Shown here piece after piece: positions 4,093 to 20,778 of a stretch of 23,283 nt of DNA. Location of the stretch: the IMG/VR virus record IMGVR_UViG_3300043427_000549, positions 1 through 23,283 of that record; one strand, 5' to 3'. Below the pieces are notes generated by a model. It was not told the origin of the DNA. It did not search any database and saw only the letters and a list, made by a program, of their open reading frames with translations. The stretch is from a virus. Every line of letters starts with the position of its first letter. Positions within the stretch are counted from its first letter, which is position 1. Made by a program: the position numbers and the translations under genes.

Positions 4093-4095
4093 GGA

Positions 4096-4129
4096 TAAGC
4101 CGCAGGCTTAATTACGCTGTCATCGTAAT
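4096..4129. promoter_or_regulatory. Two adjacent inverted repeats between divergent genes
   Basis: The 51-base region between the minus-strand scaffold-like gene (starts 4092) and the plus-strand small gene (starts 4144) holds two touching perfect palindromes. TAAGCC-GCA-GGCTTA lies at 4096-4110 and ATTACG-CTGTCAT-CGTAAT at 4111-4129. The first ends 3 bases before the scaffold ATG, where a ribosome site would normally be. Possible roles are an operator for a dimeric regulator, RNA hairpins that limit scaffold translation, or a bidirectional terminator-like structure without a T-run. The palindromes are certain; their function is inferred. Confidence 0.5.
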
Positions 4130-4143
4130 GGCGCGGCACGATT

Positions 4144-4341
4144 GTGTCAAAGCGTGAGTGGGACACCCCAGTTCGTCAACCATGGAATCAACTGATCAAG
4201 CAATGCCTTAATGCAATTGATCGCCACGAGGAGCTGTACCGCAAAACCGACAACGGCTGGCACGCTGCCAAGGCTCAGGACTTGCGGTGGTATATCTCTG
4301 AACTAAAGACTTGGATTCACGCGCAGGAGCGTGTTAGGTAA
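4144..4341 (+). CDS. Small protein on the opposite strand within the head gene cluster
   Basis: This is a 65-residue frame beginning with GTG, the only plus-strand gene I can support inside the left arm. The sequence (PWNQLIKQCLNAIDRHEELY, then DNGWHAAKAQDLRWYISELK and TWIHAQE) reads like a genuine compact helical protein with conserved-looking Trp residues, not like the antisense shadows nearby. No minus-strand gene competes for these bases. Its stop abuts the stop of the convergent small basic gene (4341/4342). There is no clear Shine-Dalgarno. Function unknown; its independent orientation suggests a moron-like accessory gene with its own expression. Confidence 0.6.
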   Translation: MSKREWDTPVRQPWNQLIKQCLNAIDRHEELYRKTDNGWHAAKAQDLRWYISELKTWIHAQERVR

Positions 4342-4503
4342 TCATTTCCGCTTGGGTTTCTTGGCGGTCTTAGCCGCAGCCTTGAATGCAGCAGCGGTAG
4401 GACGACCCGATTCACCTTTGCGTGCCATGCGTTCGTTGCTGCCAGCTTCAATGCGCTTGCGCTTGGCTGCGATGTTGGCGTAGAGGCCAGGTTTCTTAGC
4501 CAT
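4342..4503 (-). CDS. Small basic protein, DUF6321-like
   Basis: This encodes 53 residues from an ATG at 4503 that overlaps the stop of the upstream gene (TGATG). It starts [20 protein letters not shown] and continues with GESGRPTAAAFKAAAKTAKK. This matches a common small phage and bacterial family that starts MAKKxGLYANIxAKRKRI and has a PTAxAFKxAAKTAK tail (to my memory DUF6321). It is very rich in Lys, Arg and Ala and likely binds nucleic acid. The role is unknown; the place among head genes suggests a DNA-associated or internal virion protein, but that is a guess. Confidence 0.75.
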   Translation of the reverse strand: MAKKPGLYANIAAKRKRIEAGSNERMARKGESGRPTAAAFKAAAKTAKKPKRK

Positions 4504-4646
4504 CACTTTTTACCCTTTGGCTTGCGGGACTTTCCGGCTTTTGACAGCGCGATTGCGATTGCTTGCTTTTGCGGTTTGCCCGCCTTCATCTCCGCCTTGA
4601 TGTTGGCTGAGATTACATCCTTTGATTTGCCTTTCTTCAACGGCAT
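4503..4646 (-). CDS. Small lysine-rich protein, DUF6496-like
   Basis: This encodes 47 residues, starting [20 protein letters not shown], then [20 protein letters not shown]. It matches a widespread small family with the pattern MPLKKGxSxxxISxNI...GxPQKQAxAIALxKA (to my memory DUF6496), found in phages and bacteria. The longer open frame begins further upstream at 4751, but the family pattern puts the true start at the ATG at 4646. Its stop overlaps the next start. It lies almost wholly inside another open frame (4510-4818) read in a different phase. Function unknown; probably a nucleic-acid-binding or virion-internal protein. Confidence 0.75.
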
Positions 4647-9714: not shown

Positions 9715-10755
9715 TCAGTTACGAATTTGCACAGGCATTATCAGGTAAGTCTGATCTGATGCATTAGATGGCGTCAAGACTACAGGAGTTGTTGGGCCAT
9801 TTGCTGACAGTGTAACGGATTCCGCCGAGCGGAATGCCTTGAGGCCATCGAGGAGGTAGTGGACATTAAATGCCCAGGCGCCAGATGCGGTGCCGGCGTA
9901 GGTGATGAGTTCCTTGCCATTACTGGCATCAGCTTCGGCGGTGATGGCAATGCTGCTGGGTGCGGCGGTGAGCTTGACGACGGAGTTGTGGGCCTCGGCA
10001 ATGAGCGCGACGCGCTCTAGGCAGCGTGCAAAACGGTGACGGTCCAGGGTGATGACGTGCTCAAAGGTGGTGGGGATGAGCTTTGCCACGTCGGGGTAGG
10101 AGCCGTCAAGGATGCGGCTGTAGATGGTGATGCCATCGCCAGCGTCGATGACGGCTTGGCCATTGGCGGCTGCGATGCCGACGCTGCGGTCTTGCAGCAG
10201 CTTCATGGTGCTGGCTGGCAGGGTGAGGTTAACGCCATCGGGCAGGTCCACCGGCAGCCGCACCAGCCGGTGCCCGTCAGTGGCCTCCATGTAGCCATTG
10301 GCGAGGTGGATGCCCTGGAGAATGGCCTTGGATGCGTCGGTGCTGGCCGCCATGAGACAGGCACGCACGCCAGCGGTGATGTCCAAGTCAGCGCTAGGAG
10401 CCTCCACAGCAGGCATCACCGGGTAATCGGCTGCATCACACGCGGCAAGGCCGTAAGAGCCGCTGGAGGCGCTCACAGCGCCGTCTGCGATGGTCACAGG
10501 CTCGCCATCGTCCATGCGGCTTACAAGGCCAGCTAGGAGCCGATACGGCAATGCCACGGATCCAGCCGTATCGACTGCGGCTGGGATGGTGACGGTGATG
10601 CCGAGGTCAAGGTTGAAGCCGGTGATGGTGGCGGTGCCACGGGCAGCGGTGATGAGGCAGCAGTCAAGGATCGGATGTGAGCTGCGGATACCAACGGCTG
10701 GTGCGATGGTCCGAAGCGCGTGGTCGAGATCAACCTGCGATGTGATGAGCTTCAT
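9715..10755 (-). CDS. dnaN: DNA polymerase sliding clamp (beta subunit, DnaN)
   Basis: This encodes 346 residues from the ATG at 10755; the open frame extends to 10860 but the extra 35 residues are low-complexity Ser/Thr/Pro shadow of the preceding gene. The protein begins MKLITSQVDLDHALRTIAPA as DnaN does. It has the three-domain length of bacterial clamps (usual about 365), the characteristic SRILDGSYPDVAKLIP segment near residue 215, and the typical end YLIMPVQIRN. It would form a ring on DNA that tethers a polymerase. No polymerase or clamp loader is in the window, so it may serve the host polymerase III or a polymerase gene elsewhere. Phage-encoded beta clamps are uncommon. Confidence 0.9.
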   Translation of the reverse strand: MKLITSQVDLDHALRTIAPAVGIRSSHPILDCCLITAARGTATITGFNLDLGITVTIPAAVDTAGSVALPYRLLAGLVSRMDDGEPVTIADGAVSASSGSYGLAACDAADYPVMPAVEAPSADLDITAGVRACLMAASTDASKAILQGIHLANGYMEATDGHRLVRLPVDLPDGVNLTLPASTMKLLQDRSVGIAAANGQAVIDAGDGITIYSRILDGSYPDVAKLIPTTFEHVITLDRHRFARCLERVALIAEAHNSVVKLTAAPSSIAITAEADASNGKELITYAGTASGAWAFNVHYLLDGLKAFRSAESVTLSANGPTTPVVLTPSNASDQTYLIMPVQIRN

Positions 10756-10948
10756 GGAGTGCGGCGATGATGTTGTTGTAATCGTCTTGAAAGCTGGCGA
10801 CGAGTTCCATGGGGATGGGGACGCCGTCATCTTGTGCGTTGTCGCGGATGGCGGCGGCATATGCCAGCGCTTGGGTCATGCAGTCATGGAGCCGGTTGAT
10901 CACCGGCGACTGCTTGGCGGGAATGTTGATCAAGTTTGGTGATGACAT
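10730..10948 (-). CDS. Unknown small helical protein before dnaN
   Basis: This encodes 72 residues if started at the ATG at 10948. An ATG at 10879, just after the stop of the upstream RHH gene, would give 49 residues. The common part reads MTQALAYAAAIRDNAQDDG, then PMELVASFQDDYNNIIAALH and ends EAHHIAG, two helices with an acidic linker. The end overlaps the dnaN start by 26 bases. The frame extends upstream to 11023, but that part is shadow. No family recognised. Neighbours suggest a replication accessory or a regulator partner. Confidence 0.5.
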   Translation of the reverse strand: MSSPNLINIPAKQSPVINRLHDCMTQALAYAAAIRDNAQDDGVPIPMELVASFQDDYNNIIAALHEAHHIAG

Positions 10949-11168
10949 AAGCAACGAGATATTCCACCTGAAGGCGAGGCAGGTCACCGCGGGTAGCGGC
11001 AACAGCATCAGCCACGAGCGCATGGTAATCCACCGTGGTCAACCGTGCAATAGAGGCGCTTAACGCTCTGTCACGAATGAGCTGCGTGCGGGTGGTGCCA
11101 GCAAGTGCCGCCTGCTGCTCTAAGGCGGCGATGTCAGCGGGCTGAAAACGGACTTTGATCTCTTGCAT
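10884..11168 (-). CDS. Ribbon-helix-helix DNA-binding protein
   Basis: This encodes 94 residues. The N-terminus MQEIKVRFQPADIAALEQQA followed by AGTTRTQLIRDRAL has the RHH pattern: a short beta strand, a helix, a turn with GTTRTQ, and a second helix. It resembles CopG/MobC-like phage and plasmid proteins. The remaining about 60 residues are helical and may give oligomer contacts. It begins right beside a block of GGTTAG direct and inverted repeats (11181-11243), a natural binding target for a dimeric RHH protein, so autoregulation or replication control is likely but inferred. No ribosome site stands out. Confidence 0.7.
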   Translation of the reverse strand: MQEIKVRFQPADIAALEQQAALAGTTRTQLIRDRALSASIARLTTVDYHALVADAVAATRGDLPRLQVEYLVAYVITKLDQHSRQAVAGDQPAP

Positions 11169-11178
11169 AGGGGGTTTT

Positions 11179-11390
11179 GAGGTTAGACGGGGTTAGACGC
11201 CTTGCTATCACTGGCTTTGTCCGACCGTCTAACCAACCTAACCTCTTAAATAAAATAAGTAAATAGAGGGGGAGGGGGGGGGTACGGGGTAACTCTGTAA
11301 GGGAGGTGGGTCAGTCCGAAGGTTAGGCGGCCGAGAAACGCTGCAGCGCAAGGCGTCTGGCCGTCTAGCCCTTAGGTTGGTCGTCTAGCT
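11179..11390. repeat. GGTTAG repeat block with A/T tract and G-run (possible origin or operator)
   Basis: Between the primase-helicase stop and the RHH gene lies 196 bases without a gene. It holds GGTTAGACG twice in tandem (11181-11189 and 11191-11199) facing CGTCTAACC (11226-11234), and CTAACC (11238-11243). Further weaker copies are GGTTAGGCG (11321-11329), CGTCTAGCC (11362-11370) and CGTCTAGCT (11382-11390, within the primase gene). The centre has a 20-base A/T tract broken by one G (11246-11265) followed by G5-A-G9 and G4 runs (11268-11289). Iterons, a meltable tract and a nearby replication gene suggest an origin; a repressor operator is equally possible. Confidence 0.55.
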
Positions 11391-13431
11391 GGTAGTACCA
11401 ACGTCGTTTGCCGGATGATTCGCGGCGTTTGGTCCAACCCAGCTCCTTGAGGATGGATGCGACCTGCATCTGGTCCACCTTGGTCTGGCGCTCCATGGGC
11501 TTCTGGATGGCCTTGGCGAGGATCTCCTCAGAGGTCAATACCTCCATAGATCGACGGTCGGCGAGGTATGTGCAAATAGCTGAGCGCCACGGTGATTCGA
11601 TCATGTAGGCATCATTTTCCTGCTGAACCGCAACTTCCATTGCAACCGGCAGGCGGCTAGTTTCACCGTTTCGATATGCCTGAACAGCAGCGGCCCAGAT
11701 CGCGTCACGCTCCATGAGGAGCATTGCGGTGTTAATTTGATCGACTTGAGTTTTAGTCGTTGGGATCACCCAAAAACGACGGTTTCCGGTTTCATCAACT
11801 AGGAATCCGGTGGTCTTATTGGTGGTGCCAACAATAATGCCACGCCTGGGAAACGCCTCAACAGCTTTACCGTATGGCACCCGAAGTAGGTCAACGGCCT
11901 GCGATAGGAAGGCCTTAACTTGGCCAGCGTGCTTGCGATTGGTGATGTGATCTAGCTCCGCCCATTCCATAATCCAAGAACGGTGAAGCACCATCACATC
12001 GTCTTTGGTGCTGATGTCACCAAGGGCGTCGGAGTAGAACGGGCCACCGAGGCAGCCCCAGAAGCTGGACTTGTACGCGCCTTGATCGCCCATGATGACG
12101 CAAGCGGTGTCGTGCTTGTAGCCGGGGTCAAAGGCACGAGCGACAGCGCCGATCAGGGTGCGTTTCAGCATCTCGTCGTAGATGGTCGGGCCCTCCGGCT
12201 CGTCACCTGGACGGAGGTAGGCGGTGGCGAGGCCGTCGATGTATGCCGGCTCAACGTGCTGCTCGCAGTGGAGCAGGTATTCGGTGACTGGGTTGTAGGG
12301 GTTTTCATTGGCCACCTGCACCAGGCAGTCAATGGCCAGCTCCTTGCCGACCTTGTAGCCCATCTCGGCCAGCTTGAGGTAAAAGCGGTCAGCGCCGTCG
12401 ATGACCTTGCCCTTGATCTCGATTTGCTGGGTGAACAGGTTGTAACGGATCTCATCGGACTGGCTGCGCAGAAGTGCCAAAAGCTCTGCGGTTTCCAGCT
12501 TTTCCGGTTTGGTGATGATCGGCGGCTTGTCGCCACCTGTATCCCCGGCGGATTTAGCGGCCACAGCGCGGCTTGGCTCACGACGCGAAGAGCGCCAGCC
12601 GTCCTTTTTGGCCATATCGCCAAGGGTGCCAAGGCTGATACCGGACTTCTTGAAGCTGCGCCACTTGCGCTGGCAGTCGCTGGGCTTGTGCTTGCCGGAT
12701 TGGGCTGACCAGTGCTCCCAGTCATCAAGCAGGCTGTCATCGCCGACGCTATGGAGCGCCATGCCGACAGCTAGCCAGTCGTCATAGTCATCAGCGCGGG
12801 TACCCGAGAGCGATTCAAGGTATGACCGCGCCCTGGCTGCGTCGTCAGTGCCGGTGACCACCAGCAATGGCGCCGGCTCGGCTGCGGGTTTGAGCATCCG
12901 CTCGATTAGGCACAGTGGCGCTTCGGCTAGGTCGAGGTCTTCAGGGCTGTATTTAGCTACCCAGTGGTATCCGCTGGTGGTTGGGTGCGCGCCGGCAACA
13001 ACGGACTGGCTGCCAGTCCAGCGGAGTTCGATCTGCTCAGGCTTGCCTTCAGAGTCGGTGACACCAGACTTGTATTTTCGCGTGGCAATGCCTGCCCAGT
13101 AGTGCTCGGGCACGCGGTAGATGACCTGAAACCTGCCGTCGCGGCCTGATGTGACGGTCCACGAACGCGGCAGCGAAGACATGGGGCAACCCCAGTCGCG
13201 CAGGATCGTGCTGGCGCTACGTCCATCGTGATCCAAAAACAGCAGCCCACCGGATGGCACACCGCAGCAGACGCCGATTGCCTTGGCATGACCGGCATCT
13301 AGTTCAGCCTGCAGGCCAGCCTTGTCCAGTGGCCGCTCTTGCCATTTGGCTTGGTATGGACGCTTCTGGCCATCGACAGCGACATAGCCCCACCCGTCTG
13401 GCAGGCGCGCAAGCTCTTTGGAGAGGGTCAT
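11365..13431 (-). CDS. Primase-polymerase/VapE-type helicase
   Basis: This encodes 688 residues in three parts. Residues about 1-165 resemble a bifunctional primase/polymerase (Prim-Pol) domain, with LLFLDHDG as the likely metal site, WTVTSGRDGRFQVIY and ELRWTGSQSVVAGAHP. Residues about 200-280 fit PriCT_2 (RSYLESLSGTRADDYDDWLA, then WRSFKKSG and LGDMAKKDGW). The C-terminal part is a VirE/VapE-type ATPase with Walker A GDQGAYKS at 448-455, SWIMEWAEL as motif B and an NRRFWVIP arginine-finger-like element. It would start and unwind phage DNA. The ATG at 13431 overlaps the stop of a small RHH gene. One protein can supply both primase and helicase activity to the phage. Confidence 0.87.
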   Translation of the reverse strand: MTLSKELARLPDGWGYVAVDGQKRPYQAKWQERPLDKAGLQAELDAGHAKAIGVCCGVPSGGLLFLDHDGRSASTILRDWGCPMSSLPRSWTVTSGRDGRFQVIYRVPEHYWAGIATRKYKSGVTDSEGKPEQIELRWTGSQSVVAGAHPTTSGYHWVAKYSPEDLDLAEAPLCLIERMLKPAAEPAPLLVVTGTDDAARARSYLESLSGTRADDYDDWLAVGMALHSVGDDSLLDDWEHWSAQSGKHKPSDCQRKWRSFKKSGISLGTLGDMAKKDGWRSSRREPSRAVAAKSAGDTGGDKPPIITKPEKLETAELLALLRSQSDEIRYNLFTQQIEIKGKVIDGADRFYLKLAEMGYKVGKELAIDCLVQVANENPYNPVTEYLLHCEQHVEPAYIDGLATAYLRPGDEPEGPTIYDEMLKRTLIGAVARAFDPGYKHDTACVIMGDQGAYKSSFWGCLGGPFYSDALGDISTKDDVMVLHRSWIMEWAELDHITNRKHAGQVKAFLSQAVDLLRVPYGKAVEAFPRRGIIVGTTNKTTGFLVDETGNRRFWVIPTTKTQVDQINTAMLLMERDAIWAAAVQAYRNGETSRLPVAMEVAVQQENDAYMIESPWRSAICTYLADRRSMEVLTSEEILAKAIQKPMERQTKVDQMQVASILKELGWTKRRESSGKRRWYYQLDDQPKG

Positions 13432-13592
13432 CGCTTGGTTGCAGGGAGGATGCCACGTAGATGCAGGTCAAGCGACTGCTCCAGCAAAAGCCGTATGGCA
13501 GTGGCGCGACTCATGCGATCACCACGCCAAGAATCGAGGCGCTGTAGCTGATCGGCGGTGAGTCGTATATGGGTCGGATGGCTCAGTCGCAC
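13428..13592 (-). CDS. Small ribbon-helix-helix protein, first gene of left arm
   Basis: This is a 54-residue protein from a GTG at 13592, ending in a TGA that overlaps the primase ATG (ATGA). It reads HPTHIRLTADQLQRLDSWRG followed by RMSRATAIRLLLEQSL, a textbook RHH arrangement: strand with IRLT, helix, MSRATA turn, helix. No in-frame ATG exists upstream. It is the first gene on the minus side of the divergent control region, so it is a strong candidate for a repressor or autoregulator of both arms. Short RHH proteins of this type commonly control phage and toxin-antitoxin operons. The start codon is uncertain since no ribosome site is clear. Confidence 0.75.
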   Translation of the reverse strand: MRLSHPTHIRLTADQLQRLDSWRGDRMSRATAIRLLLEQSLDLHLRGILPATKR

Positions 13593-13607: not shown

Positions 13608-13643
13608 GCTTGCACAGTGTAGCCGTCGCTGCTACGCTTGCAA
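13608..13643. promoter_or_regulatory. Overlapping divergent promoters
   Basis: For the plus strand, TTGCAC (13610-13615), a 17-base spacer and TACGCT (13633-13638) form a sigma-70-like pair about 20 bases before the helicase-methyltransferase ATG. For the minus strand, TTGCAA (13638-13643) and TACACT (complement of 13616-13621) with a 16-base spacer lead into the RHH gene. The two overlap face to face. GCTTGCA occurs twice (13608-13614, 13636-13642), and GTAGC/GCTAC forms an inverted repeat (13619-13635), a possible operator for the adjacent RHH protein. Promoter strength is unproven. Confidence 0.45.
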
Positions 13644-13658
13644 GGCCAGACGGCTGCC

Positions 13659-15917
13659 ATGACCTACAAAGACTTCCTAGCCTCAAAGTCCACTGCCTGC
13701 GCGCCTGCAGGATTTGACCCGCCGAGCTTTACAGCGCCGCTGTTTCCGTTTCAGCGGGACATCGTGACCATGGCCTGCCGCGTTGGCAGGTTCTGCATCT
13801 GGGCTGACTGCGGCATGGGCAAAACGGCCATGCAGCTGGAGTGGGCGCATCAGATACATCAGCACACTGGCGGCAACGTGCTGGTGCTGGCGCCGCTTGC
13901 GGTTGCCCATCAGACCGTGCGGGAGGGTGCCAAGTTTGGGATTGTCTGCAGCTTTGCGGCGACGCAAGTTGACGTAAAGCCCGGCATCACGATCACCAAC
14001 TACGAGAAGCTCAGCCACTTTGATCCGGCCAGCTTTCAGGGCGTGGTGCTTGATGAGAGCAGCATCCTTAAGGCGTACACCGGCAAGATCCGCAACCAGA
14101 TCATCGAGTCATTCAGCCAGACGCCATTCCGCCTAGCCTGCTCAGCCACGCCGGCACCGAACGATCACATGGAGCTGGGAAATCACGCCGAGTTCATTGG
14201 CGTGATGACCAGAACCGAAATGCTGGCCATGTTTTTTGTTCATGACGGCGGGGACACCGCTAAGTGGCGGCTGAAAGGTCACGCCAAGAGCAAGTTCTGG
14301 GAATGGGTCTGCAGTTGGGCGGTGACGATCCGTAAACCATCAGACCTTGGCTATGAGGATGGCAATTTTATCCTGCCGGAACTGCAGATCAGCGATTGCA
14401 CAGTGGAGACACCGCGCGAGGCAATGGCGGATGATGCCGGCCAGATGGCACTGTTTGCCATGGAGGCGCGGACGTTGAATGACCAGCGGCAGGTGCGCAA
14501 GGCATCGCTGCAGATGCGGGTTGACGCTGCTGCAGCACTGGCCAACAGCAACGGCGAACAGTGGCTGGTGTGGTGCAATCTCAATGATGAATCCAAGGCG
14601 CTTACCGCTGCCATTGATGGCGCCGTTGAGGTGTGCGGCAGTGACAGCGATGACCACAAGCGGCAATCAGCTATCGACTTCCAAGATGGCAATATCCGAG
14701 TGCTGGTCAGCAAGCCCAGCATCTTTGGGTTTGGCCTCAATTTCCAGGGCTGCCACAATGTTGCATTTGTTGGATTAAGCCACAGCTATGAGGCCTTCTA
14801 TCAAGCCATCCGCAGGTGCTGGCGATTTGGCCAGCAGCAACCAGTCAATGCGCACATCATCTACGACGTGGCAGAGGGTCGCGTCATTGAAAACATCCGC
14901 CGCAAAGAGGCGGACAGCATCGCCATGGCTGAATCCATGGTTGTCATCATGAAACAACAAACAATGGAACAACTCAAAAAGATCCAGCGTCAGGTCGCGC
15001 CTCACATCACAGAGCATCGGTCAGGCGACAACTGGGATCTGTACATGGGTGACTGCATCGAGAGCATTAAGCAGCTCGACTCTGACAGCATCCACTACAG
15101 CATCTTCAGCCCGCCATTTGCATCGCTGTACACCTACTCCAACAGCGACCGCGACATGGGCAACAGTCGCACCGAGCAGGAGTTCTTTGATCACTTTGCG
15201 TTTCTGGCAACAGAGTTGCATCGGGTGATGATGCCTGGCAGGTTGATCAGCTTTCACTGCATGAACCTGCCTAGCAGCAAAGAGCGCGATGGCTTTATTG
15301 GCGTCAAGGATTTCCGCGGCGACATGCTGCGGATCTTTCAAGCTGCTGGCTTTGTGTTCCATAGCGAGGTCTGCATCTGGAAAGATCCGGTCACTGCCAT
15401 GCAACGCACCAAAGCGATCGGACTGCTTCATAAGCAGGTGCGTAAGGATTCAGCGTTGAGCCGTCAGGGCATCCCCGACTATCTGGTAACAGTGCGCAAG
15501 CTGGGCGACAATCCCGAGCCATGCGCCGGACCGTTTACGGAGTTTGCTGGCGAAAATCCACCACCTAAGTCAGGAGACAATATCAAAGACAGCATCAACA
15601 TCTGGCAGCGGTATGCCAGCCCGGTATGGATGGACATCAACCCATCAGACACGTTGCAATATCGCAGTGCCCGCGCCAATGAAGACGAGCGGCACATCTG
15701 CCCACTGCAACTGGAGGTGATCCGCCGCGGGATGCAGCTATGGAGCAACCCTGGCGACGTGGTACTTAGCCCGTTTGCTGGTATTGGCAGTGAGGGCTAC
15801 GTCAGCCTGCAGATGCAGCGCCGGTTCGTCGGCTTTGAGCTGAAGCCCAGCTACTTCAACTGCGCCGCTAAGAACTTGAGCATGGTGGAGTCGCATAAGC
15901 AGGGTGAGCTGGTATGA
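13659..15917 (+). CDS. SNF2-type helicase fused to DNA amino-methyltransferase
   Basis: This encodes 752 residues from the ATG at 13659; a TTG at 13638 would add 7 residues but lies in the promoter. Residues about 25-430 are a superfamily 2 helicase: PFQRDIV, Walker A DCGMGKT at 50-56, motif II DESS at 132-135 (instead of DEAH), SATP at 162-165, and motif VI QAIRRCWRFGQ near 381-391. Residues about 460-752 are a beta-class amino-methyltransferase: GDCIESI, catalytic SPPF at 484-487, and the AdoMet-binding SPFAGIGSEG at 704-713, i.e. catalytic motif before AdoMet motif. It would translocate on DNA and methylate adenine-N6 or cytosine-N4. It overlaps the next helicase gene by 4 bases. Similar fusions are known in phages; a role in replication or protection from restriction is inferred. 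Confidence 0.88.
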   Translation: MTYKDFLASKSTACAPAGFDPPSFTAPLFPFQRDIVTMACRVGRFCIWADCGMGKTAMQLEWAHQIHQHTGGNVLVLAPLAVAHQTVREGAKFGIVCSFAATQVDVKPGITITNYEKLSHFDPASFQGVVLDESSILKAYTGKIRNQIIESFSQTPFRLACSATPAPNDHMELGNHAEFIGVMTRTEMLAMFFVHDGGDTAKWRLKGHAKSKFWEWVCSWAVTIRKPSDLGYEDGNFILPELQISDCTVETPREAMADDAGQMALFAMEARTLNDQRQVRKASLQMRVDAAAALANSNGEQWLVWCNLNDESKALTAAIDGAVEVCGSDSDDHKRQSAIDFQDGNIRVLVSKPSIFGFGLNFQGCHNVAFVGLSHSYEAFYQAIRRCWRFGQQQPVNAHIIYDVAEGRVIENIRRKEADSIAMAESMVVIMKQQTMEQLKKIQRQVAPHITEHRSGDNWDLYMGDCIESIKQLDSDSIHYSIFSPPFASLYTYSNSDRDMGNSRTEQEFFDHFAFLATELHRVMMPGRLISFHCMNLPSSKERDGFIGVKDFRGDMLRIFQAAGFVFHSEVCIWKDPVTAMQRTKAIGLLHKQVRKDSALSRQGIPDYLVTVRKLGDNPEPCAGPFTEFAGENPPPKSGDNIKDSINIWQRYASPVWMDINPSDTLQYRSARANEDERHICPLQLEVIRRGMQLWSNPGDVVLSPFAGIGSEGYVSLQMQRRFVGFELKPSYFNCAAKNLSMVESHKQGELV

Positions 15918-17263
15918 ACCTCCGCCCCTACCAGCAACAGCTAGTAACCGACATCCGCCTGCAGTACCAGCTAGGCCACCGCAAGGTGCTGGCAGTGCTG
16001 CCGACTGGCGCTGGCAAGACCGTGTGCTTCAGCCACATCGCCCAATCCGCTGCCAAGAAAGGTAACCGCGTGCTGATCGCAGTACACCGTCAGGAGCTGC
16101 TGGATCAGGCGTGCCGCAGCCTGCCGATGCCGCATGGTGTGATCGCCGCCAACCGCAGCATGGACCTATCAGCAGCGGTGCAGGTCGCCAGCGTGCAAAC
16201 CGTAGCCCGCAGGCTGCACAAGCTGCCGCGTGACTTCTTCCAGCTTGTCATTATCGACGAGGCACACCACAGCAATGCCGGCACGTGGGCCAAGGTGCTG
16301 GAACACTTCCAAAGTGCGCACGTCTTAGGCGTCACCGCGACTCCAATCAGGCTCGACGGTCGCGGCTTAGGCGAGCATTACCAAGCGATGGTGGAAGGCC
16401 CCAGTGCTGCATGGCTGACCGATAACGGCTACCTCGCCAGCGCCCGTGTGTTTGGGCCGCCGGGTTTTGATACCACCGGCCTGCGCAAGCGGATGGGCGA
16501 CTTCGACACCCGCGAGGCTGAGCATCGGATCGGCACCATCATGGGCGACTGCCTGAGCCATTACCGCAAACACCTCGATGGCCAAACGGCAATTGCGTTT
16601 TGCTGTTCAGTGGCCCATGCCGAGGCAGTGGCAAGGTTATTTATGGGTGCCGGCATCCCAGCCGCCAGCATCGACGGCAGCATGACCAGCGAGCAACGGC
16701 GTGACCTGCTGCAGGCTCTAGGCACAGGCCGCATTAAGGTCCTGACTAGCTGCGCACTGATTGGTGAGGGCGTGGACGTGCCCAGCGTTGGCGGCTGCAT
16801 CCTGCTGCGGCCTACCGCTAGCACCAGCCTGCACCTGCAGATGATCGGTCGCTGCCTGAGGCCATCACCGGGCAAAGCTGCTGCAGTGGTACTGGATCAC
16901 GTCGGCAATACGCTGCGCCTTGGCCATCACCTAGAACCGCGTGAGTGGACGCTGGATGGCCTGGCCAAGCGTGACCGTGAGCAGGCGCCCAGTGTCAAGG
17001 TGTGCCCAGTGTGCTTTGCCACCAGCATGAGCGCTGCGCAGGTCTGCCGCGAGTGCGGGCATGTCTTTGCGCCACAGGAAACCAGGGAGCTGAAACAGGT
17101 CGATGGCGAGTTGGTTGAGGTTGATGCCCGCGAACGCAAGCGCGAGCAAGGCAGTGCTCAGTCACTGCAGGACCTGATTGCACTAGGCCAAAGCCGGGGG
17201 TACAAGAACGCGGTAGCGTGGGCAAAACACGTGATGTATGCCCGGTCGCAACGGGGGCGATAG
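15914..17263 (+). CDS. DEAH-box superfamily 2 helicase with zinc finger
   Basis: This encodes 449 residues, starting with ATGA overlap to the fusion gene. Helicase motifs are complete: RPYQQQ near residue 4, Walker A PTGAGKT at 30-36, DEAH at 115-118, TATP at 141-144, and QMIGRCLRP at 309-317. Residues near 355-380 carry CPVC and CREC, a four-cysteine zinc finger. The C-terminal tail is basic and helical. It resembles the SSL2/RAD25-like phage helicases used in replication or recombination. It lies between a helicase-methyltransferase and a nuclease, so the three probably act together on DNA. The last 26 bases overlap the VRR-NUC gene. Confidence 0.9.
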   Translation: MNLRPYQQQLVTDIRLQYQLGHRKVLAVLPTGAGKTVCFSHIAQSAAKKGNRVLIAVHRQELLDQACRSLPMPHGVIAANRSMDLSAAVQVASVQTVARRLHKLPRDFFQLVIIDEAHHSNAGTWAKVLEHFQSAHVLGVTATPIRLDGRGLGEHYQAMVEGPSAAWLTDNGYLASARVFGPPGFDTTGLRKRMGDFDTREAEHRIGTIMGDCLSHYRKHLDGQTAIAFCCSVAHAEAVARLFMGAGIPAASIDGSMTSEQRRDLLQALGTGRIKVLTSCALIGEGVDVPSVGGCILLRPTASTSLHLQMIGRCLRPSPGKAAAVVLDHVGNTLRLGHHLEPREWTLDGLAKRDREQAPSVKVCPVCFATSMSAAQVCRECGHVFAPQETRELKQVDGELVEVDARERKREQGSAQSLQDLIALGQSRGYKNAVAWAKHVMYARSQRGR

Positions 17264-18359: not shown

Positions 18360-18556
18360 CTGACTCCGACATCTATTGGACACTCGCTACCGCCTGCCAG
18401 TACGGCGGCAGCTTTTATCAAGCCCTCGGCCAAGCTGGCATGAAGGCAGACCCCGGCAACAAACAACGCATCCTTGACGCATTCCCTGAAATGGTCGCCA
18501 CTTACGGCACCGCCAGCAGGCTGCACCAAGGCCTACGCAGTGGGGCGATGGTATGA
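18356..18556 (+). CDS. Unknown small soluble protein before RecE-like gene
   Basis: This encodes 66 residues and overlaps the genes on both sides by 4 bases (ATGA each). The sequence, TDSDIYWTLATACQYGGSFY, then QALGQAGMKADPGNKQRIL and AFPEMVATYGTASRL, is mainly helical with aromatic residues near the N-terminus and looks like a compact folded domain. No motif or family recognised. Tight coupling to the exonuclease suggests a recombination or replication accessory. Confidence 0.65.
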   Translation: MTDSDIYWTLATACQYGGSFYQALGQAGMKADPGNKQRILDAFPEMVATYGTASRLHQGLRSGAMV

Positions 18557-19341
18557 CCAGCAACGATGAGTACCACGCCGACCCAGCCATCAGCGCCAGT
18601 CACCTGCACGCTGTTGCCGCCAGCCCCTACCACTACTGGAGCCGCTACCTCAACCCAGACCGTCCGCCATCGGTGCAAACGCCTGCGATGAAACTCGGCA
18701 GCCTGACCCATTGCGCAGTGCTGGAACCGGATGAGCTGAGCAAGCGGTATGGCATCTGCCTGCCGCGTAATACCAAAGCCGGCAAGGAAATGGAAGCCGA
18801 GATGCAAGCATCCGGCATCGAGGCTGTCACCAGCACCGACATGGAGCAAGCGCTGGCAATGGCCGCCAGCGTCCGCAGCCACCAGGCTGCTGCAGCGCTG
18901 CTGCGTGACGGCAAGGCAGAGCAGAGCTTCTGGTGGGATGACCTCCAGACCGGCCTGCGCTGCAAATGCCGCCCTGACTGGTACACCGGCAACACCATTG
19001 TGGACCTCAAGACCACGACGGATGCATCTCCGAGGGGCTTCGCTAAAAGCGTCGCGGCTTGGAGATACCACGTCCAGCAAAACCACTATCTCGCCGGCAC
19101 GTTTGCAGAGCGGTTCATCTTCATCGCAGTGGAGAAGGCCTACCCGTATGCCGTCGGCGTGTACGAGCTGGATGCTGATGCCGTGCAATTTGGCGAATAC
19201 GAACGCCGCAGCAACCTGCAGACCATTGCTGATTGCCGTGTCATCTCTGAATGGCCCGGTTACGGCAACACCATCCAACCGTTGAGCCTGCCCAAATGGG
19301 CGCTCAACGCTACCCCAACCATGACCTCCGATGACTTCTAG
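18553..19341 (+). CDS. RecE-like PD-(D/E)XK exonuclease
   Basis: This encodes 262 residues of the RecE/exodeoxyribonuclease VIII type. Seen are ISASHL near residue 13, the GSLTHCAVLEP segment at 49-59, E123, then CRPDW with D142, the catalytic IVDLKTT with D151 and K153, and the Q/Y motif YHVQQNHYLAG at 172-182. The enzyme resects one DNA strand to produce single-stranded tails. It is followed by a RecT/Bet annealase whose start overlaps its end by 11 bases, the classic two-gene recombination pair. All catalytic residues are in place. Length is close to the usual stand-alone nuclease domain. Confidence 0.88.
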   Translation: MTSNDEYHADPAISASHLHAVAASPYHYWSRYLNPDRPPSVQTPAMKLGSLTHCAVLEPDELSKRYGICLPRNTKAGKEMEAEMQASGIEAVTSTDMEQALAMAASVRSHQAAAALLRDGKAEQSFWWDDLQTGLRCKCRPDWYTGNTIVDLKTTTDASPRGFAKSVAAWRYHVQQNHYLAGTFAERFIFIAVEKAYPYAVGVYELDADAVQFGEYERRSNLQTIADCRVISEWPGYGNTIQPLSLPKWALNATPTMTSDDF

Positions 19342-20071
19342 TTCACTTGCGCTCTGGACACCAGAGCAGACCCAACTAATCAGCACCACCATTGCGCCAG
19401 GGTGCAGCAATGACGAGCTGCGGCTATTTGCCTATGCCTGTCAGCGGACAGGATTGGATCCGTTTAGCAAGCAGATCTACGCCATCAAGCGTGGCGGCAA
19501 GATGACCATCCAAGCTGGCATCGACGGCCTGCGCAGCATCGCCGAGCGCACCGGGCAACTGGATGGCAGTGAGACGATGTGGTGCGGCGAAGATGGCCAA
19601 TGGACAGACGTATGGCTCAGCAGCAAACCACCTGCCGCGGCCAAGACCACCATCTGGCGCAAGGGTGCCAGCCATCCATTCACTGGTGTTGCCCGCTTTG
19701 CTGACTACAACGCCGGCCAAGGCTTGTGGTCCAAGATGGGCGCGACGATGATTGCCAAATGCAGCGAGGCATTGGCGTTGCGCAAGGCCTTCCCTGCTGA
19801 CCTGAGCGGCGTCTACAGCACCGATGAGATGGAGCAGGCTGTCGAGCCTGTCACCGTGACCGCCGTGCCAGCCGGTGATGACAAGGTGTTTACCGCTGGC
19901 AAGGCTGCCATTGCAAAGGCGACCAATATGGAAGCCCTTGCCAAGGTGACCGAGCGCATGGAAGCCCGCAAGGCTGACCTATCCAGCGAGCAGCAGGAAA
20001 CCCTGCTGGCGCTTGCCTTGGAGAAAGAAGCCAGCTTTGCCACCACCGAGGAGGATCCGTTTGATGACTAG
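19331..20071 (+). CDS. RecT/Bet single-strand annealing protein
   Basis: This encodes 246 residues of the phage Bet/RecT family. Diagnostic parts are DELRLFAYACQRTGLDPFSK, then QIYAIKRGGKMTIQAGIDGL, RSIAERTGQ, and a segment with WSKMGATMIAKCSEALALRK followed by AFPADLSGVYSTDEM. It pairs complementary single strands during recombination-dependent replication or repair. The C-terminal about 60 residues are helical and variable, ending in an acidic EEDPFDD, possibly a docking tip. It partners with the RecE-like exonuclease just upstream, and SSB is encoded three genes downstream. Confidence 0.9.
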   Translation: MTSSSLALWTPEQTQLISTTIAPGCSNDELRLFAYACQRTGLDPFSKQIYAIKRGGKMTIQAGIDGLRSIAERTGQLDGSETMWCGEDGQWTDVWLSSKPPAAAKTTIWRKGASHPFTGVARFADYNAGQGLWSKMGATMIAKCSEALALRKAFPADLSGVYSTDEMEQAVEPVTVTAVPAGDDKVFTAGKAAIAKATNMEALAKVTERMEARKADLSSEQQETLLALALEKEASFATTEEDPFDD

Positions 20072-20231
20072 CCTCTCCCCCGCCGCGCAGGCGGTGCTGG
20101 ATGCCAGCAATCTGCTTCTTGGCAAGGACTCCTACCTAATCCTCGCCGCCGCCCTGCGAGCTGCTGCACTGGTACCCAACATCGACCGCCTCAGGTTGCT
20201 CGCAATCGCCGACGAATTGGAGGGACAATGA
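20064..20231 (+). CDS. Unknown small Ala/Leu-rich protein
   Basis: This encodes 55 residues from the ATG at 20064, which overlaps the RecT stop by 8 bases; the longer frame from 20013 is shadow. The sequence LSPAAQAVLDASNLLLGKDS, then LAAALRAAALVPNIDRLRLL and AIADELEGQ resembles a frequent type of short phage protein beginning LSPAAQAVLDA and containing an AAALRAAA helix. Function unknown. It overlaps the next gene by 4 bases. Confidence 0.65.
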   Translation: MTSLSPAAQAVLDASNLLLGKDSYLILAAALRAAALVPNIDRLRLLAIADELEGQ

Positions 20232-20437
20232 CTGAACCATACCTGACGACTGATCAGCTAGCAGCGCGTTGGGGGCTGAAACCAGCAGCCATTAAAAACC
20301 AACGCGCGCGCAACATCGGTCCTGGGTACTACACCATCCCACGTATTGGCTTTCCTGCTGGTACGCCACGAGTGCGGTATCCGCTAGCGCAAGTGCTGGC
20401 ATTTGAAGAGTCCAATTCCATTACACCACTGACATGA
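20228..20437 (+). CDS. Small helix-turn-helix protein (MerR/excisionase-like)
   Basis: This encodes 69 residues. The N-terminus YLTTDQLAARWGLKPAAIKN followed by QRARNIGPGYY fits the short winged HTH of the HTH_17/excisionase type. The later part, IPRIGFPAGTPRVRYPLAQV then LAFEES, is the usual wing with the RYPLxxVLAFE end. It may regulate transcription in this operon or help an integrase, but no integrase is in the window. It overlaps both neighbours by 4 bases. Confidence 0.7.
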   Translation: MTEPYLTTDQLAARWGLKPAAIKNQRARNIGPGYYTIPRIGFPAGTPRVRYPLAQVLAFEESNSITPLT

Positions 20438-20778
20438 GCCTCTACGCATCCGGCATCATTCGCATCATCACCGACCCACAACTGCGCACCTTTGACAGCG
20501 GCACCATGGTTGCCAACTTTGCAGGTGGCATCCAAGAAGGCAAGGACAAGGACGGCAACTGGATCAACAATGCAATCGACATTGAGGTTTGGGGCAAGTC
20601 AGCCGAGTTAATTGTTGATCGCTGCAAAAAAGGCGACAGCATCTTTGTAACCGGCAACATCCGCCGCCAAGAGTGGGCAGACAAGGAAACTGCTGCCAAA
20701 CGCAGCAAGCATGTCTTCAGCGTGCAGCGGTTTGAGTTCCTGCCTCGTGGCGCTCAATCTGAGGAGGTGGCATTTTGA
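20434..20778 (+). CDS. ssb: Single-stranded DNA-binding protein
   Basis: This encodes 114 residues with an OB-fold layout: MSLYASGIIRIITDPQLRTF, then MVANFAGGIQE, DIEVWGKSAELIVDRCKKGD, SIFVTGNIRRQEW and FSVQRFEFLPRG. WGKxAE and KGDxIxVxGxL/I are typical for SSB. The N-terminus resembles cyanobacterial and cyanophage SSBs. It coats single strands made by the RecE-like nuclease and helicases. The usual acidic DDxPF end is absent, but EEVAF at the C-terminus may be a shortened docking tip. A strong GAGGAGGTGG site within the end of this gene serves the next one. Confidence 0.88.
   Translation: MSLYASGIIRIITDPQLRTFDSGTMVANFAGGIQEGKDKDGNWINNAIDIEVWGKSAELIVDRCKKGDSIFVTGNIRRQEWADKETAAKRSKHVFSVQRFEFLPRGAQSEEVAF

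Follow-up and report, generated by a model that had tools for sequence, protein, structure and literature searches.

In phage P4, the alpha protein acts at once as primase, helicase and origin-binding protein, and the phage needs a second site, crr, for its replication. PICI origins lie 3′ of rep and consist of an A/T region with one set of iterons on either side, with no other known bacterial replicon alike (PMC6092414), and SaPI Rep and Cch2 have C-terminal domains and iterons of this kind (PMC7581432). The replicon modules of the V. cholerae PLE are exchanged, and the binding domain of RepA covaries with the origin (PMC8263062). For pRN1 orf904, an archaeo-eukaryotic primase-helicase, an origin described as a stem-loop is placed within about 200 nt 3′ of the gene, and an origin 3′ of the gene has been proposed also for the PriCT_2 phage BIP-1 (PMC4234260). 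No replication origin for the cyanophage group considered here was described in the literature searched.

The window, by which we mean the whole viral record of 23,283 bases that was analysed, contains a 196-nt non-coding gap (11169–11364) in which, with a probability of roughly 86%, a tailed phage of the Synechococcus/Cyanobium type has its replication origin. This putative origin is SaPI/PICI-like and follows directly on the 3′ side of the gene for its presumed initiator, gene and putative origin together forming one cassette. Because the relatives include Synechococcus phages S-H1 and S-LBS1 and a Cyanobium contig, the hosts are probably picocyanobacterial. The neighbouring genes are those named in the original prediction: on one side a primase-helicase with PriCT_2 and VapE-like domains (11365–13431, minus strand), the presumed cognate initiator, and on the other a NikA-like RHH gene (10884–11168, minus strand) followed by a phage DnaN sliding clamp (9715–10860, minus strand). 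A sequence search of the PDB with the initiator returned one relative, 7pds, named 'Similar to D. nodosus vapE'. Pfam placed no domain over the C-terminal region of the initiator, which from its sequence appears to be a winged helix, as stated for related proteins (PMC4234260). The window also encodes portal, head morphogenesis, terminase and Gp13-like major capsid genes; it thus has virion genes of its own, whereas satellites of the SaPI/PICI kind borrow those of a helper. Beyond the initiator gene lie an ORF joining a helicase-like part to an N6_N4 DNA methylase part (13638–15917), an adjoining second helicase gene (15914–17263) and recombination genes for an exonuclease VIII-like protein, RecT and SSB (18553–20778). 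The gap is not strictly the only sizeable one of the left arm, as had been supposed, since in 4093–4509 (417 nt), too, the coding strand carries no long ORF.

The gap is dense in short repeats. Where at least four GGTTAG units in two facing tandem pairs had been predicted, five exact copies were found (11181+, 11191+, 11229−, 11238− and 11321+), comprising those two mutually facing pairs and a fifth copy, against 0.29 expected and a maximum of 3 in 5,000 dinucleotide shuffles of the gap. When up to one mismatch is allowed, the 23,283-base record holds five copies of the fuller unit, GGTTAGACGG; they all lie within 11181–11370, and none elsewhere. The RHH-proximal arm has GGTTAGACGG (11181–11190, plus strand) in tandem with GGTTAGACGC (11191–11200, plus strand), and this pair is faced by a second GGTTAGACGG (11225–11234, minus strand) and a degenerate copy, GGTTAGGTTG (11234–11243, minus strand), that adjoins an A/T tract. 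The primase-proximal arm holds GGTTAGGCGG (11321–11330, plus strand) and GGCTAGACGG (11361–11370, minus strand), the latter overlapping the primase stop codon, into which the array extends. With five to six sites the array is sparse compared with the up to 14 of relatives. The two arms also share a perfect 11-nt inverted repeat (11195–11205 and 11348–11358). The A/T tract between them (11246–11265), a putative melting zone made up of TTAAATAAAATAA, a G and TAAATA, had been described as 20 bases of A/T; it is A or T at 19 of its 20 positions and is still the only such stretch in the record. Next to it, the G5-A-G9 run that had been reported lies at 11268–11282 (plus strand) and is the record's only G or C run of at least 7. 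It is also the sole G4-type motif of the record and its top G4Hunter peak, but the capacity to form a G-quadruplex is not conserved: many relatives have a G or C run close to their A/T tract, and a G4 motif on the G-run strand is found in 38% of window-type gaps and in 0% of those of two other types (D and Z, below), so a conserved G-quadruplex element was rejected. Rfam, tRNA, promoter and terminator scans yielded no hits.

To place these features, we assembled 374 related loci, most of them retrieved with the RHH protein, the primase or one of three related initiators as query, together with the named phages S-H1 and S-LBS1 and a Cyanobium contig; most viral records in this set are fragments, and a locus is said to be without an RHH gene where none was detected by tblastn. 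Four groups of initiators precede the gap: V, to which the window belongs, and VL (S-LBS1-like, with Prim-Pol), which have a VapE-like helicase domain in common; D, with D5_N/DUF5906; and Z, with Zn_Ribbon_Prim and a weak Toprim match. Counted with V and VL together, these make three primase-helicase families, among which no similarity was detected in these searches, and each occupies the same slot, followed by an A/T tract that iterons peculiar to the family flank on either side. In 248 distinct gaps of all groups, the best 9-mer reached group means of 5–11 copies per 300 nt on the 3′ side of the initiator gene; shuffles gave about 2.4–2.7, and the 300 nt on the 5′ side of the gene gave 2.4–3.0. 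The arrays thus lie 3′ of the initiator gene and not 5′, the position they take in SaPI/PICI-type origins. In 95–100% of gaps the A/T peak had iterons to either side of it, and the innermost iterons were opposed in 202 of 234 (78 of 78 in V, only 30 of 48 in D). Arrays were about as dense where a downstream RHH gene was not detected (all 49 VL gaps, 29 Z, 8 V and 7 D). In two D-type records of 40,546 and 44,918 bases, CGGACGCAA has nine exact copies per record, all in the gap, and neither these records, which may be incomplete, nor the window contained a second iteron cluster of the P4 type. GC skew, proposed earlier as a check, was uninformative for the window and showed no turn at the gap in S-H1; in S-LBS1 its minimum fell near the gap, but at the end of the record.

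Comparison of close relatives shows that initiator gene and putative origin are exchanged as one cassette, which has the RHH start codon at one end and the initiator start at the other. Two D-type loci (L002 and L004) and one Z-type locus (L008) share ~90–92% identity with the window for thousands of bases from the RHH gene onward, so that the RHH gene and dnaN remain together when the cassette is swapped; the homology breaks 3–10 nt before the RHH start codon, and the sequence upstream is unrelated. In L002 and L004 homology resumes in the region of the primase gene start (window 13428–13538), and since it stops and resumes at those ends, the exchanged piece consists of the initiator gene and the gap. 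In the reverse combination, L068 keeps a window-type gap despite a diverged RHH gene and dnaN, and L079 and L080 do likewise, less perfectly. In the 30 nt before the RHH ATG, pairs from different initiator groups show 27–29% identity, which is near chance; in the first 15 nt beyond the ATG their identity is 92%. These first 15 nt of the RHH gene, so similar across initiator groups at the boundary of the cassette, are possibly a recombination linker.

These swaps bear on what the repeats are for. The original prediction had offered, beside an origin, an RHH operator, in which case the NikA-like RHH protein would bind the repeats and regulate the RHH-dnaN operon; the repeats do sit directly upstream of the RHH gene, and RHH proteins commonly bind short repeats. 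We consider this very unlikely because the repeats are not co-conserved with the RHH protein. Among 149 loci, which are related so that locus pairs are not independent events, the 497 pairs with RHH proteins at least 85% identical but initiators of different groups had a median gap 6-mer cosine of 0.133, close to the background of 0.107, whereas the 86 pairs with initiators at least 85% and RHH proteins at most 65% identical had a median of 0.724. The comparison with relatives that had been called for thus found the repeats kept with the same initiator even where the RHH protein had diverged, and all 49 distinct S-LBS1-type gaps carry dense arrays with no adjacent RHH gene detected; the RHH protein is therefore not a likely reader of the repeats. 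The swaps argue equally against a packaging (pac/cos) or other terminase-related site, to which the nearby terminase genes and the S-LBS1 gap abutting terS might point, but which we regard as extremely improbable because swapping leaves the downstream DNA, including the gene of the terminase large subunit, ~90% identical next to an unrelated gap, and because arrays persist beside other downstream genes.

Two further alternatives invoke structure. A leader or attenuator RNA between the primase and RHH-dnaN would account for the fold of the window gap on the transcript strand (z = −3.2); however, in 18 relatives both strands fold about equally well, which is expected of inverted DNA repeats, and with no Rfam match, no terminator and sequences that are unrelated between groups, this explanation is scarcely credible. 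Operator, packaging site and structured RNA were each rejected after testing against relatives. An origin of the pRN1 type, in which the initiator would recognize a large two-arm hairpin and not duplex iterons, has in its favour that the two arms are inverted and able to pair and that, for AEP-PriCT_2 proteins, an origin of this kind 3′ of the encoding gene has been proposed (PMC4234260). We nevertheless think it unlikely, because the window gap does not stand out when folded as DNA (z −1.25) and because direct tandem iterons, together with covariation between iteron tail and initiator, point to reading of sequence. The origin put forward in the original prediction is therefore the reading we retain; an A/T tract lies between iterons on the 3′ side of the primase-helicase gene, in a layout that recurs in the 248 distinct gaps and is co-inherited with the initiator.

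The covariation concerns V and VL, whose iterons are mostly GGTNRG followed by a variable tail. Bases 7–8, in the tail, were compared with residues close to the C-terminus of the initiator, in the window the G-K-R-R-W encoded at 11398–11412 (minus strand), presumably in the wing of the winged helix: [QS]RW occurred with CA in 10 of 10 cases, xR[QSA]W with GC in 14 of 14, L[KR]W with AA in 19 of 22 and RRW with AC in 51 of 68. Mutual information between tail bases and wing class was 1.67 bits, against at most 0.60 in shuffles, the classes having been drawn post hoc, after the data had been seen. The wing class has switched many times on a tree built from the 330 residues that precede it, and tree-independent pairs agree with the association (on average 2.3, 4.0 and 4.3 with and about 0 against), although these pairs are few and none of the comparisons reaches 0.05.

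A further element, B, is common to the putative origins of the three initiator families and reads TTGCTATCACTGG in the window (11202–11214, plus strand). Its form TTGSTATSACTGG has 56 copies in gaps and 2 outside, gaps making up 3% of the bases; it is present in V, D and Z gaps, the exact form is in no VL gap, and the element is nearly absent from S-LBS1-type gaps. Element B could be an RHH site, though gaps next to which no RHH gene was detected contain it as well, and for that reason this assignment was not upheld.

On the origin reading, the VapE-type primase-helicase would bind the GGTTAGACGG iterons through its C-terminal domain; two helicase rings might assemble face to face on the two arms, as their symmetry suggests; the A/T tract would then open; and the initiator protein itself may prime synthesis, to be extended by a host or phage polymerase with the phage DnaN clamp. 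A broader proposal, which we offer tentatively and think somewhat doubtful as a whole, is that the locus is one slot for interchangeable initiators of three families, each with its own origin, in which the VapE wing residues set the iteron end (RRW-AC, QRW/SRW-CA, LKW-AA and xR[QSA]W-GC) as a readable code that has switched repeatedly, and in which element B may recruit a common factor to three origin types.

Compared with the SaPI/PICI rep-ori systems (PMC6092414, PMC7581432), the putative origin is likewise directly 3′ of an initiator helicase-primase gene, its iterons appear specific to the initiator and the helicase is VapE-type by its sequence match to PDB 7pds; the loci differ in belonging to tailed cyanophages that themselves encode capsid, portal and terminase, in admitting three unrelated initiator families to one slot, and in having the extra shared element B and a G or C run close to the A/T tract. 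The order iterons, A/T zone, iterons 3′ of rep, which among known bacterial replicons the 2018 paper (PMC6092414) found in PICIs alone, is common here in full phages. The V. cholerae PLE replicon (PMC7145576, PMC8263062) resembles these loci in the covariation of the initiator DNA-binding domain with the origin and in the exchange of modules, but its initiator is RepA_N, without predicted helicase or primase activity, and it is the binding domain that is swapped in PLE, whereas whole unrelated initiators are swapped here. Like pRN1 orf904 (PMC4234260), the initiators are primase-helicases with a putative origin close 3′ of the gene; unlike the stem-loop there, iterons dominate here. Swapping might aid escape from origin-directed nucleases such as Odn (PMC8263062) or relieve incompatibility between co-infecting phages. 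The union of primase, helicase and, as predicted here, origin binding in one polypeptide is shared with P4 alpha, from whose ori/crr system these loci differ in that no second array was seen. The gap offers a testable candidate origin for a cyanophage group, and the natural swaps with covarying wing residues provide ready pairs for studying change of origin specificity. Among the relatives, the Cyanobium MAG contig (L151) encodes an initiator 47% identical to that of the window and is possibly a prophage or phage contig.
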